Shown: positions 12,615 to 37,276 of the stretch, in pieces
How the letters are laid out: every line of letters begins with the position of its first letter
How positions within the stretch are numbered: position 1 is the first letter of the stretch
Source: Gammaproteobacteria bacterium
Lineage (GTDB): Bacteria; Pseudomonadota; Gammaproteobacteria; Pseudomonadales; Azotimanducaceae
NCBI GenBank assembly: GCA_026708185.1
Contig: JAPOVK010000016.1
Coordinates: 1 to 64,000, forward strand
Direction: 5' to 3'
DNA: 64,000 nucleotides
Program-made: the position numbers and the translations under genes
Notes under the pieces: generated by a model
Told to the model about the DNA's origin: nothing
Databases searched by the model: none
What the model saw: only the letters and a program-made list of their open reading frames with translations

Positions 12615-13052
12615 CTATTCCGTCGCCGACTGGTGACCCGCGATGCCCTCCAGTTCCGGCGGCATGTAGTTCTCGTCGTGCTTGGCGAGCACCTCCGCTG
12701 CGGCGAAGACTCGGTCGTCGTCCAGCCTTCCGGTGACGAGGATGCCTTGCCCTTCGCGGAACAGACTCGGCAGGATGCCGTTGTAGACCACGTCGAAGTC
12801 GTGGCCCGCGTAGTCCGTGAGCGTAAAACGAACGCCCAATCCCGTGTCGTCATGGACGACGCTGCCGTCCACCACCATGCCGCCCGCACGAATCACCGTC
12901 CCCAACGGCGCTTCGCCGTTGACGACCTTCGCCGGTTCGTAGAACAGGTTGATGTTCTCCTGCATGGCCGACATCACCAAGCCGGCGGTGGCACCGGCAC
13001 CCACGAGGACGAACAGGACGACCGCCAAGCGCTGCTTTCGAACGGGCTTCAC
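12615..13052 (-). CDS. ccmE: Cytochrome c-type biogenesis heme chaperone CcmE
   Basis: A 145-residue membrane-anchored heme chaperone. One N-terminal transmembrane helix ([19 protein letters not shown]) precedes an OB-fold domain. The C-terminal [11 protein letters not shown] carries the conserved His that binds heme covalently and the Tyr that coordinates it. CcmE receives heme from CcmC in the periplasm and passes it to the CcmF/H ligation complex. Its start overlaps ccmD by 4 bp. It is the last ccm gene in this block; ccmF, ccmG and ccmH do not follow. Confidence 0.97.
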
Positions 13053-14096: not shown

Positions 14097-14765
14097 TCAG
14101 TACTCCTGGCTGATCGCCAAGGCCTTGCCCACCGCGAACGGCGCGGCCGTGATCGAGCCGGTCAAGAGGGCTCCCAAGACCAGCAGTTCGAACGCCGCGT
14201 CCCCCCCTGCGCCCGCGGCCGTGCTCGCGCCCGCGCCAAAGATCAGCACCGGCAAGTAGAACGGCATGACCAGTACCGCCAAAAGGAGGCCGCCGCGACC
14301 GGTGCCGGCGGTCAGGGCCGCGCCGATGGCGCCCAGCAGCGTCAGCGTCGGCGTGCCGAGAAGCAAGGTCAGCATGACCATGCCCGCCCCGGCGGTCGAG
14401 TGCCCGAGCACGTACACCGCAAGCGGGCTCAGCACCAGCACGGGCAAGCCGGCGCACGACCAGTTGGCCGCCAGCTTGCCGAGTACGGCGGCAAACCGCG
14501 GTCGGGCGTGAATCAGCAGTTGCTCCAGGGTGCCGTCTTCGACGTCGCGGCGGAAGACGCCTTCGACGGCCAGCAGGTTGGCGAACAAGGCGAGCACCCA
14601 CACCGCGCCTGCGGCGCTGCCGCCGAGTCCCTTCTCCGCGCTGGCGGCTCCGACGCCGAGCAGCAGCACCGCTAGCACAAAGAACACCAAGGGGTTGGCG
14701 GCGTCCGTGGGGCGGCGCAAAGCGACCAGCAGATCGCGCTGGAACAACGCCGCGAAAGCCCTCAC
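14097..14765 (-). CDS. ccmB: Heme exporter permease CcmB
   Basis: A 222-residue six-helix permease, matching the usual CcmB length when the GTG at 14765 is used (read MRAFAALFQRDLLVALRRP). The motif FRRDVEDGTLEQLL after the second helix is characteristic. It pairs with CcmA to release heme-loaded CcmE. No ATG lies upstream in frame near the expected start. The GTG overlaps a preceding TGA as GTGA; that stop belongs to a 30-codon frame between ccmA and ccmB which may be non-functional. Confidence 0.93.
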   Translation of the reverse strand: MRAFAALFQRDLLVALRRPTDAANPLVFFVLAVLLLGVGAASAEKGLGGSAAGAVWVLALFANLLAVEGVFRRDVEDGTLEQLLIHARPRFAAVLGKLAANWSCAGLPVLVLSPLAVYVLGHSTAGAGMVMLTLLLGTPTLTLLGAIGAALTAGTGRGGLLLAVLVMPFYLPVLIFGAGASTAAGAGGDAAFELLVLGALLTGSITAAPFAVGKALAISQEY

Positions 14766-29002: not shown

Positions 29003-29557
29003 TTGCTCCAGCACGCCAGTCCATTCCCACGAGACTTCTACGAGCGCGACCCGCGCGAGGTCGCGCCGGACTTGCTGGGCACCTTGCTCCTGCATGGCCC
29101 GACGGTCGGGAGGATCATCGAGACGGAGGCCTATCTCGCCGAGGACGATCCCGCCGCCCACGCCTTCAGGGGCAAGACGCCGCGCACGATCGTGCTTTTC
29201 GGACCCGCCGGCCATGCCTACGTCTACCGGACGCGGGCGCACCACTGCCTGAACGTCGCCGTCCAGGAGGAAGGCGTCCCGGGCTGCGTGCTGATCCGCG
29301 CGGTGACGCCGGTCACCGGTATCGCCACGATGCGCTGCCGTCGCGGCGACGTGCCAGAGCGGCGGCTGACTGACGGCCCCGCCAAGCTGTGTCAGGCGTT
29401 CGCCATCGACATGCGCCACTACGGCGTCGATCTCACCACGCGAGAGGGGCTAAGCATCCTCGACGACGGCACGCGATACGCCACGGTGCGGACCGGGCCG
29501 CGCGTTGGCATCTCAGTGGCCCGGACCTTGCCCTTACGCTATCGACCTGCCATGTAA
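29003..29557 (+). CDS. mpg: DNA-3-methyladenine glycosylase (AAG/MPG type)
   Basis: A 184-residue base-excision repair glycosylase. RIIETEAYLAEDDPAAHAF holds the catalytic Glu and the conserved HA; AYVYRTRAHHCLNV and GPAKLCQAF are the other family blocks. The start is a TTG at 29003 preceded by GAGGTGAC; homologs begin near this point. It removes alkylated purines. It forms the left border of the accessory island, and decayed copies of its 3' third occur at 35183-35299 and 36165-36283. Confidence 0.92.
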   Translation: MLQHASPFPRDFYERDPREVAPDLLGTLLLHGPTVGRIIETEAYLAEDDPAAHAFRGKTPRTIVLFGPAGHAYVYRTRAHHCLNVAVQEEGVPGCVLIRAVTPVTGIATMRCRRGDVPERRLTDGPAKLCQAFAIDMRHYGVDLTTREGLSILDDGTRYATVRTGPRVGISVARTLPLRYRPAM

Positions 29558-29696
29558 GCGCCGTGACCTTCCAGCCCGGCTGGGGAACGGCGCTCTTCAG
29601 ACGCATTCACGCCGGCACGCTCGGTTGCCTCGCCGGTGTCGGGGACTTGGGTGCGCCCACTATCTGCATCCAGAACGGTCTGCGACTTGGCGCCGT

Positions 29697-31277
29697 CTAG
29701 CAACCCGACGCCTGCCGGCCTCTTCGTGCCAAGCGGTTCGCCGCCACTCGTATCGTCGGTCTAAAGGGCTCCGGTGAGCCGGCACGATCCGGCGCGCGGA
29801 GCAGGGGCATCGATTGCTGCGGCGTGGATCGCCGCGATCGACCGAGTTCACGAGACGCCGCTTTGGCGCACGGAACCTCTGGCGATCCGAAAGGTCCAAG
29901 TGGAACAACGGTTTGCGATTGGGTCCGCAAATCCGCTTTAGTGGAACCTACCACGGCTTTTTCGAGCTGTGCAACCATTTTTCGGACTTTTTTCGCCTCG
30001 TTCCTTGTGAGCAATACCTCCTCCGTGATGCGCGACAGCTCTTCGGTGGCGAGGGCCGCGGTGTTGTCAACCTGCGGCTCCCGGCAACAGCAGCGGCGCG
30101 GAGTGGCACTCCCGTGACGGACACCGTCGGGCGGCTCGACGCCGTAGCGGTGCCTGGCCACCGGGCCCAACGCCGCATCCTGCGTGCGCACGTAGCGGGC
30201 CATGGTCTCGACGCGCTTCCAGCGACCCGCCTCCATCAGTTCCGTATCGTCGGTGCCCGCGCGGCGCAGCGACTGCGCCGTGCCGATCCGGAAGGAGTGC
30301 CCTGAGACGCGGCCCTCGATGCCGGCGTCGGCAGCACGGTTCTTGATGATGTCGCGCATCCTGCGGGCGCCCACCCCGGCCTCTTGCACGACGTCGGCCT
30401 TGTTCACGCGGCGGAACAGCGGACCGTCTTCGATGCCGGCGGCCTCTAGCCACTGACGGGCAAGGCCCGCAGTCGGTGGACCGGCGTACTTGACGGCCCC
30501 GGCACCTTCCTGGTCGGTCTTGCTGCGGCGGATGAAGACGCTCAGCCAGTCGTCGACGAAGGCGATGTCGGCGACCTGGAGCGCTGCGGCCTCGGCGACG
30601 CGCAGCAGACCGTCGGACATGATTCGCGTCAGCAACGCGTCGCGCAAGCCCGCGTTCGTATTGGTGTTTTCGGCCAACTCCGCCATGCGGTCCGCCTGCT
30701 CCCACATGATGCCCACGGCCTGGCCCGTGCCGCGCTCGGCACCTTCGCGGCGGAAACCCGCCAGGGTCAGTTTGGTCTGCGTTCCGATAGGCGAGGGGAC
30801 CCCTTCCCTCTCGGCGCGTTTGGCTAGCGCCGCGACCGCGATCCCCGCGGTCACCGGGGACAGTCCGCGTTTGAACAGCATGCTGAGGTAGTCCGCCACT
30901 AGGGCATCGGTAGGCGGGCGTCCGTCGCGCCAGTCGTCGAACTGCCGGGCGGCGCGGTCGTAGACCTCGCGCGTGCTCGGCGCCAGTGCCTGGTCGGAGA
31001 GCGGCGTCGAGGCGCTCGCTCCGTTGTTGGTCTTGTCGTCGGCGTCGTTCGCCTGAACGCGGTCGGCCATTTCTTCGTCTTCTCCCGAATCCGTTGCACG
31101 AAGCGGATCGTCCCGAGCCGACGCGGCGGGCGTGCCGATGGGGTGTCCACCGGAACCGCCGGCAGGTCGGTGCGGCGATCCGCGAACGCTCCGAATAGGC
31201 GTAGGCGCGTTGGGAATCAAGGGGGAGCCGCATCGGCGTTCGTCGCTGTAGCCGTGGCCTGGCACGTGCTCGGACAT
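29697..31277 (-). CDS. Tyrosine recombinase / site-specific integrase with long C-terminal tail
   Basis: A 526-residue integrase. An N-terminal SAM-like domain (about 95-190, STREVYDRAARQFDDWRDGR) is followed by the catalytic domain with R226 (LLRVAEAAAL), K253, H327 and R330 (GHSFRIGTAQSL), W353 (GRWKR) and Y362 (ARYVRTQ). Start 31277 is preceded by GGAGGAGG at good spacing; a second ATG at 31070 would remove a low-complexity leader. About 160 residues follow the active Tyr, part of which (GSTKADLR) is encoded by a 25-bp sequence found inverted upstream of the gene. The original stop may have been lost. It points toward mpg and probably drove the island's acquisition. Confidence 0.88.
   Translation of the reverse strand: MSEHVPGHGYSDERRCGSPLIPNAPTPIRSVRGSPHRPAGGSGGHPIGTPAASARDDPLRATDSGEDEEMADRVQANDADDKTNNGASASTPLSDQALAPSTREVYDRAARQFDDWRDGRPPTDALVADYLSMLFKRGLSPVTAGIAVAALAKRAEREGVPSPIGTQTKLTLAGFRREGAERGTGQAVGIMWEQADRMAELAENTNTNAGLRDALLTRIMSDGLLRVAEAAALQVADIAFVDDWLSVFIRRSKTDQEGAGAVKYAGPPTAGLARQWLEAAGIEDGPLFRRVNKADVVQEAGVGARRMRDIIKNRAADAGIEGRVSGHSFRIGTAQSLRRAGTDDTELMEAGRWKRVETMARYVRTQDAALGPVARHRYGVEPPDGVRHGSATPRRCCCREPQVDNTAALATEELSRITEEVLLTRNEAKKVRKMVAQLEKAVVGSTKADLRTQSQTVVPLGPFGSPEVPCAKAASRELGRSRRSTPQQSMPLLRAPDRAGSPEPFRPTIRVAANRLARRGRQASGC
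29924..29948 (-). repeat. 25-bp sequence, copy inside integrase 3' end
   Basis: On the minus strand this reads GGTTCCACT...TTTGCGGA and matches the plus-strand sequence at 31296-31320 in 23 of 25 positions. Both copies translate as GSTKADLR. The two copies are inverted and bracket almost the entire integrase gene. It could be a recombinase-binding or attachment-like site; that is inference. Confidence 0.8.
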
Positions 31278-31295: not shown

Positions 31296-31320
31296 GGTTC
31301 CACAAAAGCGGACTTGCGGA
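31296..31320 (+). repeat. 25-bp sequence, copy upstream of integrase
   Basis: The plus strand reads GGTTCCACA...CTTGCGGA, 23 of 25 bases identical to the inverted copy at 29924-29948. It lies in the 177-bp region between the divergent integrase and secreted-protein genes, only 5 bp upstream of the integrase ribosome site, so it could also serve as an operator. Confidence 0.8.
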
Positions 31321-32480: not shown

Positions 32481-32577
32481 TTGGGGACACAGGCGTGTGG
32501 CGTCCTACAGCGTCTAGGAGATCTCGGATGCGGCGCTTCCGTCCTGCCGCGCGGATATCGCGCTTCCATAGGGCGTT
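32481..32577 (+). repeat. REP-like element A1 (diverged)
   Basis: Begins TTGGGGACACAGGCG and contains TCCTACAGCGTCTAGGA, a form of the 6-bp hairpin seen in the other copies. The second half differs from the family consensus. It abuts copy A2. Confidence 0.75.
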
Positions 32578-32579
32578 AG

Positions 32580-32777
32580 TTGGGGACACGCGCGTTGGGC
32601 GTCCTACAGCGCGTAGGAGATCTCGCACGCCATCCTTCCGGTGAGCCGCGGCTACGCCGGGCCGATGTCGCACGGGAATCGGAGACATTGCCCATCGACA
32701 CGCCCTCACCAAGCACGCGCTGGCAGCGTTGTCCGCATGGCGGCGCTGGCGTCAGTGCGGGGAATCGCGGGATGTGC
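32580..32777 (+). repeat. REP-like element A2 (long form)
   Basis: Begins TTGGGGACACGCGCG, with the hairpin TCCTACAGCGCGTAGGA followed by GATCTCGCACGCC and the block GGGCCGATGTCGCACGG. It extends about 198 bp, and its distal 80 bp (from CGGAGACATTGCCCATCGAC) match copy A6 almost exactly, so these two share a recent origin. Confidence 0.85.
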
Positions 32778-33479: not shown

Positions 33480-33600
33480 TTGGGGACACACGCGATCCGC
33501 GTCCTACAGCGTGTAGGACATCTCGCACGCCGTGCTTCCCGAGAACCGCGGCAACGCCGGGCCGATGTCGCACGGCAATTCGGGACATTGGCCAGTGACA
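33480..33600 (+). repeat. REP-like element A3
   Basis: Begins TTGGGGACACACGCG with the hairpin TCCTACAGCGTGTAGGA, then ATCTCGCACGCCGT and the shared block GGGCCGATGTCGCACGG. It sits directly before the RAYT-like fragment at 33630, in the position a REP takes beside its transposase. Confidence 0.85.
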
Positions 33601-33629
33601 CCGCCCGGTCGGACCGCGACGATTCCGCC

Positions 33630-33805
33630 ATGACCACCCCGAGACGACTGCTCGTCGACCCCGTCAACGCCTGCGACTACCACCCCGTGTCGCGCTGCGT
33701 GCAGGGCGCCTTCCTCTGCGGCCGCGACCGCCGCACCGGCCGCGACTACTCGCACCGCAGGCAGTGGCTCGTGGAGCGCATCGACCTGCTGGGACGCGCG
33801 ATAGC
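33630..33805 (+). pseudogene. N-terminal remnant of a REP-associated (Y1/RAYT-like) transposase
   Basis: From the ATG at 33630 the frame reads MTTPRRLLVDPVNACDYH, then VSRCVQGAFLCGRDRRTGR and HRRQWLVERIDLLGRAI. This matches my recollection of the N-terminus of REP-associated tyrosine transposases (xVSRCVRRAFLCGxDxxTGRxxEHRRxW). The HUH motif and catalytic Tyr, which should follow near residue 75 and later, are missing because element A4 begins at 33806. Only about 58 codons remain. It is flanked on both sides by the repeats such enzymes mobilise. Confidence 0.7.
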
Positions 33806-33907
33806 TGGGGACACACGCGTGGTGCGTCCTACAGTGCGTAGGAAATCTCGCACGCCGTCCTTCCGGCGACCCACGGCTACGCCGGGCCGATGTCGCACGG
33901 AAATCGG
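33806..33907 (+). repeat. REP-like element A4
   Basis: Begins CTGGGGACACACGCG with hairpin TCCTACAGTGCGTAGGA and the block GGCTACGCCGGGCCGATG. It is nearly identical to the first 100 bp of A6. Its left edge coincides with the truncation point of the transposase fragment. Confidence 0.85.
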
Positions 33908-33922
33908 TGGGGCCGAGGGAGC

Positions 33923-33949
33923 TGGGGACACACGCGTTGGGCGTCCTCG
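33923..33949 (+). repeat. REP-like element A5 (head only)
   Basis: A short copy, CTGGGGACACACGCGTTGGG plus GCGTCCT, in which only the first 27 bp match the family before the sequence diverges. Confidence 0.65.
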
Positions 33950-33980
33950 GACTCGTTGCGCTACTTGCGCTAGGCGTGCG

Positions 33981-34277
33981 GTGTCACGGTTTGCCGACCA
34001 TGAAGCACCTGACGATCAAGGCTACGCGAATGCCGCGCTCGCGGTGCTCGCGTGCTATGGCACATGGGAGCTTGCGTCCGAGGCTGGGCTGGGACTAGCC
34101 GCCATCCTCGCAATCGAAGTCGTCGTGATCGCGCTGTGCCTCCTGCCGTGGCCCTACTGGCGGAGCACCTATAGGCGCGTCTCCCGCGCCTTGGAGCGCG
34201 CACGGACCCGCACCGGGAATAGCGCCGCCTTGATCGATAGCTGGGGACACACGCGTGGTGCGTCCTACAGTGCGTAG
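33981..34277 (+). CDS. Possible small membrane protein
   Basis: A 98-codon frame from GTG at 33981, with NAALAVLACYGTWELASEAG and LAAILAIEVVVIALCLLPW forming one or two membrane helices and a basic tail (RRVSRALERARTRTGN). No ribosome site is seen. The last roughly 12 codons are read from element A6, so the original end has been replaced. It may be a damaged gene. The sequence composition over the helices looks coding, but support is modest. Confidence 0.35.
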   Translation: MSRFADHEAPDDQGYANAALAVLACYGTWELASEAGLGLAAILAIEVVVIALCLLPWPYWRSTYRRVSRALERARTRTGNSAALIDSWGHTRGASYSA

Positions 34278-34438
34278 GAGATCTCGCACGCCGTCCTTCC
34301 GGCGACCCACGGCTACGCCGGGCCGATGTCGCACGGGAATCGGAGACATTGCCCATCGACACGCCCTCACCAAGCACGCGCTAGCAGCGCTGTCCGCATG
34401 GCGGCGCTGGCGTCAGTGCTGGCAATCGCGGGATGTGC
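34242..34438 (+). repeat. REP-like element A6 (long form)
   Basis: Begins CTGGGGACACACGCG. The first 100 bp match A4, and the full 197 bp match A2, including CACGCCCTCACCAAGCACGC and GCATGGCGGCGCTGGCGTCA. The distal part encodes a lipobox-like start (MAALASVLAIAGC) in one frame, which may be chance. Confidence 0.85.
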
Positions 34439-34920: not shown

Positions 34921-35612
34921 TGCAGTGGGCCGGTGCTACAGGACCGTCTAGGTCCTAGAGAGGTTTCCTCGGCGAACGGTTGCATCCCGAGAATAGTACA
35001 CCGCCTCGGACGTCGCGAAGGGGCAAAGTGGCCGACAGATCCGCGCGTACCTAGCCCGGAGCGCGACAAGCGATGCAGCGGGGATTTCCTGTCGAATCAA
35101 AGTCGCGTAGCCGTTCCGTCATACGAACGCTTACCGCCCAATTGGCGTCGAATTGGGGACGCACGCGTTCCGCGTCTCCGGGCGGCGGCTAACCGACGGC
35201 CCGCGAAGCTGTGCCAAGCGTTCGCCATCGACATGCGGACTACGGCATCGACCGCTCTGTGGCCACGATCTTGCCGTGTGCTACCGACCTGTCATCTAAC
35301 CGAGACGTGTGTCCAAAGATGTGCACCTGAATCCGGACGTATGCTCCTGCTCCCGGGGTGCGTGGCGGGTACGGAACCCGTACCGCGTCACTCGGGCTGA
35401 AGGTGGCACGTGCTTGCCTGCATTGGTGAGCACGTTCACCGTGCAGGAACATGCCGTACGCACCACGCTCGTTCCGTACGGGCACCTCTGACCTGGGCTG
35501 CTGTTGGCGGCGGGCGAATGCGATTTCGCCCGCCACCACGACCCGCGGGACTATGGACCGCCGAGGGTGTACGAGGACGGACGTCTGACCTAAGTTAGTT
35601 GGAGATGTCGCA
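34921..35612. other. 690-bp stretch with no intact gene
   Basis: It contains mpg-fragment element M1 (35153-35316). On either side, 34921-35152 and 35317-35612 show only short overlapping frames without ribosome sites or recognisable motifs. I see no RNA gene. Confidence 0.6.
35153..35316 (+). mobile_element. Element M1: mpg 3' fragment between degenerate inverted ends
   Basis: Left end TTGGGGACGCACGCG, right end GACGTGTGTCCAAA. Bases 35183-35299 match the 3' third of a mpg gene (CGGCGGCTAACCGACGGC, GTTCGCCATCGACATGCG, and the terminal CTACCGACCTG..ATCTAA). Relative to the intact gene at 29003-29557 the fragment lacks about 26 internal codons and has a one-base deletion in the GGCCCGCGAAG region, which it shares with M2. 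It cannot encode a working glycosylase. Confidence 0.8.
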
Positions 35613-35996
35613 ATGGGGATTGGCATAGTGGAACTGACTCAGATGGTTGACGTGACAAGGCATTCGCTGGCGACGTTTGTCGGCATGGCAGTGCTGACAA
35701 CAGCGCTAGCGACCGGCGGATGCGCCACTGGTGTTGCGTACGAAGGCAAGCGAGTGGTCGAGGTCGAGTTCGCGGACGCATCGCCCTGTCTGCAACAGTG
35801 TTCGCTGTCGTTCCGAGATTGCGTGCCGCCGGTGAAAACGAGTTCGGGCCTGGGCCTGACTCCGGGTGCCTTGGTAACCGATCTCACGGCAAGGAAACAC
35901 GAGGTGAGACGCTGCCGCCGAGACAGTGAGTCGTGCAACTTGAGCTGCAACGCGACCGACGCCCGCACAATCGCGTTGGCAAGCGAGTTGCCGTGA
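35613..35996 (+). CDS. Putative lipoprotein, unrecognised
   Basis: A 127-residue protein. GGAGATG lies 8-14 bp before the ATG at 35613. The hydrophobic segment FVGMAVLTTALATGGC ends in a lipobox with Cys near residue 37, so the real start may be the internal ATG giving MVDVTRHSLATF. The mature part has paired Cys (CLQQCSLSFRDCVPP, CRRDSESCNLSCNA) in a CxxxC pattern. A function is not evident. It lies between M1 and M2 in the island. Confidence 0.6.
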   Translation: MGIGIVELTQMVDVTRHSLATFVGMAVLTTALATGGCATGVAYEGKRVVEVEFADASPCLQQCSLSFRDCVPPVKTSSGLGLTPGALVTDLTARKHEVRRCRRDSESCNLSCNATDARTIALASELP

Positions 35997-36132
35997 GCCT
36001 TGCCGTCGGCGCGCGGGTCAAGGCACCAAGGGCGCTGGCCGCCTAGCCGGCGGCTGGGGTGTTGGCGAGCTGGGGCGAGTCGCCGGAGTTGGGATAGCCC
36101 GTCTGGATCCCGTTGCATTTCTGAACGTCGGG

Positions 36133-36301
36133 TTGGGGACACACGCGTTCCGCATCTCCGCGGGCGGCGGCTTACCGACGGCCCGCGAAACTGTGCCAAG
36201 CGTTCGCCTTCGACATGCGGCACTACGGCGTCGACCCCTCCGTGGCCACGATCTTTCCGGTGTGCTATCGACCTGTCATCTAACCGAGACGTGTGTCCCC
36301 A
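36133..36301 (+). mobile_element. Element M2: mpg 3' fragment with 12-bp terminal inverted repeats
   Basis: The 169-bp element starts TTGGGGACACACGCG and ends GACGTGTGTCCCCA. The ends TGGGGACACACG (36134-36145) and CGTGTGTCCCCA (36290-36301) are perfect 12-bp inverted repeats. Bases 36165-36283 match the mpg 3' third, with the same internal gap and one-base deletion as M1. The right end abuts the truncation point of an AlbA_2-domain gene. No transposase is encoded. Confidence 0.85.
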
Positions 36302-36449
36302 GATCCGCAAGCAGGACCGTGCCGCCCACGTGGTTGAGGAACGCCGTGACCTCGCGCGCAAGATCGAAGTTCGTCACCTCGTCGCGCTTGAACTCTTGCC
36401 CGGAGGCCTCGCCCTGGCGGATCAGGCGTTGGAGTTCGTCTCGCGTCAT
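36302..36449 (-). pseudogene. 5' remnant of an AlbA_2/Schlafen-type (COG2865-like) gene
   Basis: From the ATG at 36449 the minus strand reads MTRDELQRLIRQGEASGQ, then EFKRDEVTNFDLAREVTAFL and NHVGGTVLLADL. The pattern of a Glu-Phe-Lys-x core, an Ala-Phe-x-Asn helix and a Gly-Gly-Thr strand is the start of the AlbA_2 DNA-binding domain found in Schlafen-like proteins and predicted transcription regulators. The frame is cut at about 49 codons where element M2 ends. The rest of the gene is not seen nearby, so it is a truncated relic. Confidence 0.7.
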
Positions 36450-36518: not shown

Positions 36519-37157
36519 ATGAGCCAGAACGCAAACCCGAATGACCCGAAAACACGGAAGATGATGAACCCGAAACTGCCTTGGCTCGTTCGATCAAGAT
36601 TCTCGCTCGCGGCGACCGTGGGCGTGTGCTTGGCGGCCTTGGTGGCCGGAAATGCGGCGGCTGCAGACGAGCTGAAGGGCGTTGAAGCTGCGCGGCTGCT
36701 TAGCGGCATCAAGGCGGCAGACCCGGCACGGTATAGGATCCTGGAAGACGGTACCTACGACACGTACACGGCGGAAGAGAAGTCTCGGTTCGCGACAGAA
36801 CTGCGAGGGCTCTTGGACGGTCGCGCATCGGACAGTGACGCCATGGTCGATCATGCGGTCCTCTCGGACGACGAGGGACTATCTCCGGCTGTGAAGCGGC
36901 GTCTTGACGAGCTGGCGGCGCGTAGCGCGATGGCTTCCATTCGGATGACTGACCTGTTGCTGAAGCGCATTCACGGTGTCAAGGACGCCGTCGATTCGGG
37001 ATCACCGTCGGCGGTCATCCGCGAGGTTCTGCGCCTCATGGATGCGCAGAAAGAGCTGGGCCAGCTTCGGGACGAGTATGGTTCCCGTGCCGCGGGGCCG
37101 GACCGCGAACCACGACGACTCGGGACGCACGCGTGCCACCCATCGCCATCTCGGTAG
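36519..37157 (+). CDS. Secreted helical hypothetical protein
   Basis: A 212-residue frame from ATG 36519. An alternative start is the ATGATG at 36561, which gives a standard signal peptide (basic start, then FSLAATVGVCLAALVAGNAAAA). The mature protein is polar and helical (KSRFATELRGLLDG, VKRRLDELAARSAMASIRM, VIREVLRLMDAQKELGQL). No domain is recognised. The C-terminal residues after about KELGQLRDEYGSR are read from sequence resembling a repeat head (GGGACGCACGCG at about 37122), so the natural end may have been altered. It is the last island gene before tatA. Confidence 0.6.
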   Translation: MSQNANPNDPKTRKMMNPKLPWLVRSRFSLAATVGVCLAALVAGNAAAADELKGVEAARLLSGIKAADPARYRILEDGTYDTYTAEEKSRFATELRGLLDGRASDSDAMVDHAVLSDDEGLSPAVKRRLDELAARSAMASIRMTDLLLKRIHGVKDAVDSGSPSAVIREVLRLMDAQKELGQLRDEYGSRAAGPDREPRRLGTHACHPSPSR

Positions 37158-37276
37158 CGCCGACCTAAGCAGTTCCGCCATTGGCTGCCCGCCCAACACC
37201 CTATTCCGCACCTTTGACCGGGCCGCTACAAAGCCTATGATGCGCAGATCAGTCGAAGGCCAGACCGGAGAATTCT

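Follow-up and report, generated by a model that had tools for sequence, protein, structure and literature searches.

Two small inverted-end units carrying a host mpg fragment: candidate miniatures of a RAYT-like transposase family in a gammaproteobacterial island

An integrase island at the end of mpg

The analyzed window is a 64,000-nucleotide stretch of a gammaproteobacterial contig. It contains an intact mpg gene that matches PF02245 (E 5.2e-59, over 29033-29545) and ends in LRYRPAM and a stop codon, followed by a tyrosine recombinase gene and, 7.7 kb later, by tatA (Table 1). The tatA start is located close behind mpg in six of eight same-genus relatives (G060, G094, G105, G106, G107 and G108), and none was seen there in G078 or G102. 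The mpg gene of G106 terminates with LRYWLPAERHVAHL and a stop codon, then comes tatA, and a G106-like mpg end directly precedes tatA in the window as well. With a query of only the last 75 bases, this displaced end scores 64.5 versus at most 54.4 at 1257 other positions; a 150-base query gives a narrow result (88.1 versus at most 86.1 elsewhere, the rival position at 1101 being unrelated). Because a G106-like mpg end lies before tatA, with the recombinase between, we conclude that the island entered the end of mpg, and that the class-A copies described below are not its displaced end.

The island also contains several end motifs that abut cut genes. The window transposase fragment and two small island proteins match no Pfam family. 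The AlbA_2-type fragment at 36302 has a weak Pfam match (E 0.018), and a long intact gene of this type is present in the relatives G100 and G101. A block of ~200 bp, consisting of a class-B end and the lipoprotein-like gene start, is duplicated within the island (32581-32777 and 34242-34438, 93%), and its left edge is at the end motif.

Table 1. Features of the mpg-tatA island and their positions in the window
Feature	Coordinates	Strand	Remarks
Intact mpg (3-methyladenine DNA glycosylase)	29033..29557	+	terminus LRYRPAM-stop, resembled by the class-A filler
Tyrosine recombinase of the island, conserved part	30141..31070	-	ORF 29697-31277
Two class-B left ends (32482, 32581)	32482..32777	+	end at 32581 followed by a lipoprotein-like gene start, also behind 34242
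Transposase left end and RAYT-like transposase start (~55 codons, from 33630)	33481..33794	+	truncated ahead of the following end (33806)
Three further left ends (33806, 33923, 34242)	33806..34438	+	sequences behind the ends differ
Class-A copy 1	35154..35317	+	mpg 3' fragment between the left end and a decayed right end
Class-A copy 2	36134..36301	+	same mpg 3' fragment within perfect 12-bp inverted ends
5' part of an AlbA_2-type gene	36302..36449	-	breaks off precisely where copy 2 ends on the right
Displaced native mpg 3' end	37136..37215 (approx.)	+	adjoins tatA; right island edge

Class-A copies share one shortened mpg fragment

A preliminary description of this DNA reported both class-A copies, placing each start one base early (they begin at 35154 and 36134). 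The copies are 90% identical (E 8.6e-62) and have inverted ends of the form TGGGGACACACG...CGTGTGTCCCCA. The ends of copy 2 are perfect over 12 bp, as first described (36134-36145 and 36290-36301). Copy 1 has the left end TGGGGACGCACG with one mismatch (35154-35165) and a decayed right end with two (35306-35317). Likeness between the copies ceases within ~8 bases of the ends, and the flanks outside are unlike, with 13 of 40 bases identical per side (among them CGTCG..T at the left and GAT at the right). No direct repeat that would represent a target-site duplication is visible beside the ends of either copy, as judged by eye, and no empty site of either was found in relatives. The left flank of copy 2, also by eye, is unlike a continuation of the AlbA_2-type gene. 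As a single strand, copy 2 has a predicted fold that closes on the 12-bp terminal stem at -38.6 kcal/mol (shuffles -31.2, sd 2.95; z -2.5; 1 of 200 shuffles as good).

The filler of both copies is a shortened and frameshifted 3' part of mpg. Positions 29359-29430 of the intact gene match the copies at 88% (E 8.2e-18) and positions 29512-29560 more weakly at 76% (E 0.02). Own-genome class-A matches with E values of 0.01-0.6 were treated as chance and dropped. Both mpg-matching blocks keep the order and strand of the gene and lie inside the ends, so the earlier account is not contradicted by mpg-like sequence reaching past the inverted repeats. The ~70 bp between the blocks are missing from both copies, and the same single base of GGCCCC is deleted in both. 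The matches to the genome's own mpg thus bear out the earlier claims of a common decayed filler and a shared one-base deletion. Since the mpg 3' end is cut and frameshifted alike in both copies, one unit existed before there were two. The proposed multiplication after capture therefore stands as to the order of events, transposition being a presumed mode of copying. The filler terminus CTATCGACCTGTCATCTAA is similar to that of the window's own mpg and unlike that of G106, from which we infer that the piece was derived from this allele or a near relative.

The whole class-A unit was not detected in any other genome among the 16 of the genus. Exact paired ends occur only at copy 2 among 206 family genomes, in a search that is blind to decayed pairs, copy 1 included. 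A search for further copies, as proposed earlier, thus brought none to light in these sets, and the two known copies lie ~1 kb apart inside one island. No protein family was found for the class-A reading frames and one window frame. Both copies are decayed and probably functionless now.

End repeats and the RAYT-like transposase

The exact 13-mer GGGGACACACGCG has 27 matches in 7 of the 16 genus genomes, while its reversed control has none. Within the window, the 12-mer end with at most two mismatches has 12 matches versus 8.5 in shuffles (sd 3.1), which is no significant enrichment (12 of 100 shuffles reach 12 matches). Many GGGGACACACGCG copies run on into a palindrome of the form CCTACA...TGTAGG, and GTAG was found only inside class-B sequences. 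The end sequence GGGGACAC fits the GGGGWSAS motif.

The genome possesses one complete transposase gene of the RAYT-like kind, located on contig C11 and encoding 329 aa. Its product matches REP_Tyr_transpos (E 4.9e-10; 39.5 bits, below the curated cut-off of 80) and Y1_Tnp (E 0.0045, also below the curated cut-off), contains the HFH and YVDLNP sequences, and has no PDB match. At this locus (L038, 3600-3760 and 5240-5440), several GGGGACA ends lie upstream of the complete gene and repeated GGCGTCTGTCC motifs downstream. A decayed two-ended element on contig C44 retains transposase pieces 1-24, 54-122 and 240-329; its right end is at 12773, and its left end, near 14343, is degenerate. DNA similar to the window transposase start is present in 7 of 15 genus relatives (G060, G102, G103, G105, G106, G107, G108).

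Transposase homology was detected at 6 of the 17 end loci tested (L038, L039, L139, L141, L145 and L149), of which L038 had been chosen because of this homology, and at none of 12 mpg and AlbA_2 control loci. Outside the window, ends less than 1 kb from transposase homology are direct upstream (4 of 4) and inverted downstream (8 of 8). In the window, the one end upstream of the transposase fragment is direct; the three downstream ends are direct, not inverted, and in our reading each opens a following unit as its left end. To judge from these orientations, the arrangement around the transposase is that of TIRtrons, which are described as a RAYT-like HUH transposase gene with inverted ends sharing GGGGWSAS (PMC3733652, in the part consulted). 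On the same comparative grounds, the ends appear to serve a RAYT-like HUH transposase (TIRYT or TIRtron) as its terminal inverted repeats.

At 21 end loci no right end was present within ~330 bp. Two loci, L140 (G106:C68) and L139 (G105:C52), contain dense clusters of end motifs at 40-170 bp spacing, without clear filler. The scan of the wider RAYT group (best 80 of 417 relatives) covered 31 distant loci (L043-L073), of which 29 had a readable ORF. In two of these loci GGGGAC was matched upstream, once in a form other than the proper motif, and four (L051, L055, L070, L072) have TGTGTCCCC downstream. Given so few matches, such ends are not a general feature of this wider group.

Miniatures of the end family

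Inward-facing end pairs less than 700 bp apart, with at most one mismatch per end, were searched in 1.16 Mb of loci chosen by likeness to these sequences. Four distinct pairs were identified (class-A copy 2, L170 of G106, L039 on C44, and L056), and the reversed motif gave none. The L170 and L039 miniatures, of 244 and 252 bp, consist of a left end, the palindrome, transposase codons 1-25 and a right end. The L056 pair, from a Pseudomonadales genome further removed, spans 126 bp. Over the left 23 bases, each class-A copy matches the L170 miniature in 21 positions and then passes into mpg. The class-A right end CCGAGACGTGTGTCCCCA resembles that of L170, CCGAGGGCGTCTGTCCCCA, a likeness that is short past the 12-mer and only suggestive. 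At L039 (1274-2850), the ~250-bp miniature lies among pieces of the decayed transposase gene, as if nested.

Origin of the class-A units

We consider it fairly probable (roughly 0.6, on sequence comparison) that the class-A copies are non-autonomous miniatures of a RAYT-like, TIRYT-type HUH transposase family with host mpg as filler. The ends would have come to enclose a duplicated mpg tail, either through aberrant single-strand transposition or through recombination between ends. The single-stranded unit could then fold via its inverted ends, and the transposase, acting in trans, would have copied it ~1 kb away.

The main rival involves no transposase action: an mpg tail that by chance lay between two inverted end repeats may have been duplicated as a block, by recombination or template switching among the dispersed end repeats of a decaying island. 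It is a serious rival, since truncated or foreign sequence adjoins other ends of the island as well. Such a history would accommodate the transposase fragment before 33806 and the AlbA_2 fragment at 36302, both abutting ends, the different sequences behind the ends at 33923, 32581 and 34242, and the confinement of both copies to one island (none elsewhere in the 16 genus genomes; exact pairs, 206 family genomes). It fits less well with a duplicated block that stops a few bases from the repeats on both sides, and with the existence elsewhere of two-ended miniatures of the same end family. We regard it as a possible origin, at about one chance in four.

The preliminary description named att remnants of one island integration as a competing reading. 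An origin of the class-A copies as att remnants, left by repeated integrations of the island into the mpg 3' end, is improbable. The recombinase does adjoin mpg, the island splits mpg from tatA, the class-A terminus is like the own, island-side mpg terminus, and a similar GGGACGCACGCGT stretch (37120-37131 region) precedes the displaced mpg end. However, the displaced native end is located elsewhere, just before tatA, and the class-A fragment is not at the island edge in register with it; independently displaced ends, moreover, would not share the ~70-bp deletion, the base deletion and both inverted ends.

It is very unlikely that the end repeats serve as attC-like sites in an integron-like cassette array under the island recombinase. 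In favour of such an array, the recombinase gene in the window is oriented divergently to a series of small genes and repeats, and C44 and G107:C13 likewise have ends close to a related recombinase. Against it, the integrase model TIGR02249 scores 13 bits with a cut-off of 265 (no IntI-type integrase); of 20 neighbourhoods (the window and 19 others around recombinases), only the window and L226 have multiple short direct repeats on the 5' side; and in G105, which has six ends, no such recombinase is found at E 1e-20. A direct repeat at any position is present in 11 of the 20 neighbourhoods.

Comparison with known mobile elements

The miniature reading of the class-A copies places them beside several described systems. 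TIRtrons or TIRYT elements (TnpA_REP subclass 2.1) similarly combine a RAYT-like HUH gene with GGGGWSAS inverted ends, and their ends are also dispersed as singles, pairs and clusters; the class-A filler differs in being a host gene fragment, a kind of filler that the consulted parts of these two sources do not describe (PMC3733652, PMC6006769). REPINs, according to the portion of PMC3116915 considered, likewise have two inverted end motifs with a spacer, a predicted hairpin, and presumed RAYT mobilization in trans, and their ends are REP sequences with 71 bp between 16-mer starts in the GI type. A GTAG-type tag next to the palindrome marks the REP sequences of REPINs. The class-A ends (TGGGGACACACG) do not appear to be REPs, and they enclose a gene-derived spacer of ~144 bp. 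Bacterial MITEs and mosaic TIMEs resemble class A as small non-autonomous elements with terminal inverted repeats, and the mosaics carry foreign DNA; however, the TIMEs are Tn3-related with 5-6 bp duplications (PMC4133298), whereas class A has no visible duplication and is assigned to an HUH family.

The preliminary description drew a parallel with Pack-type elements. As in Pack-MULEs and Pack-MITEs, class A has a host gene fragment between non-autonomous ends, multiplied after capture, and the two copies have common deletions. Plant Pack-MULEs and Pack-MITEs use DDE transposases and are numerous, whereas class A comprises two copies with an HUH family. The parallel is thus largely supported in that inverted ends hold an mpg fragment, but the ends are of the RAYT-like, TIRYT type (Y1 HUH) and not those of a classical DDE MITE.

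More generally, it can be speculated that RAYT-like HUH transposases capture host gene fragments between inverted ends and multiply them, as a bacterial single-strand counterpart of Pack-type elements; we hold this only tentatively. Under such fragment capture, the truncated genes beside other ends of the island (transposase, lipoprotein, membrane protein and AlbA_2) would be further traces. Among the papers listed in literature searches, none reports gene-fragment capture by RAYT or TIRYT elements, as judged by titles and abstract openings. The RAYT-type transposases owe their reputation mainly to a presumed role in spreading short palindromes. Should their ends also carry and multiply gene pieces, bacteria would have in them a source of duplicated gene fragments and chimeras. 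The transposase-filled miniatures and the mpg-filled units provide matched substrates for testing fragment carriage.

Repeats around the island recombinase and its relatives

In the window, the two arms of a 25-bp inverted repeat (92%) lie on either side of the tyrosine recombinase's conserved part (29924-29948 and 31296-31320). Inverted repeats of 16-35 bp also bracket related recombinases in 15 of 30 loci (L184-L213), with sequences that differ by subgroup; the bracketed segments are possibly recombinase-bounded mobile units. At one further locus (L231, G062:C1:3688800-3702700), direct repeats of 932 bp (96% identity) and 53 bp flank a related recombinase and are possible island boundaries.
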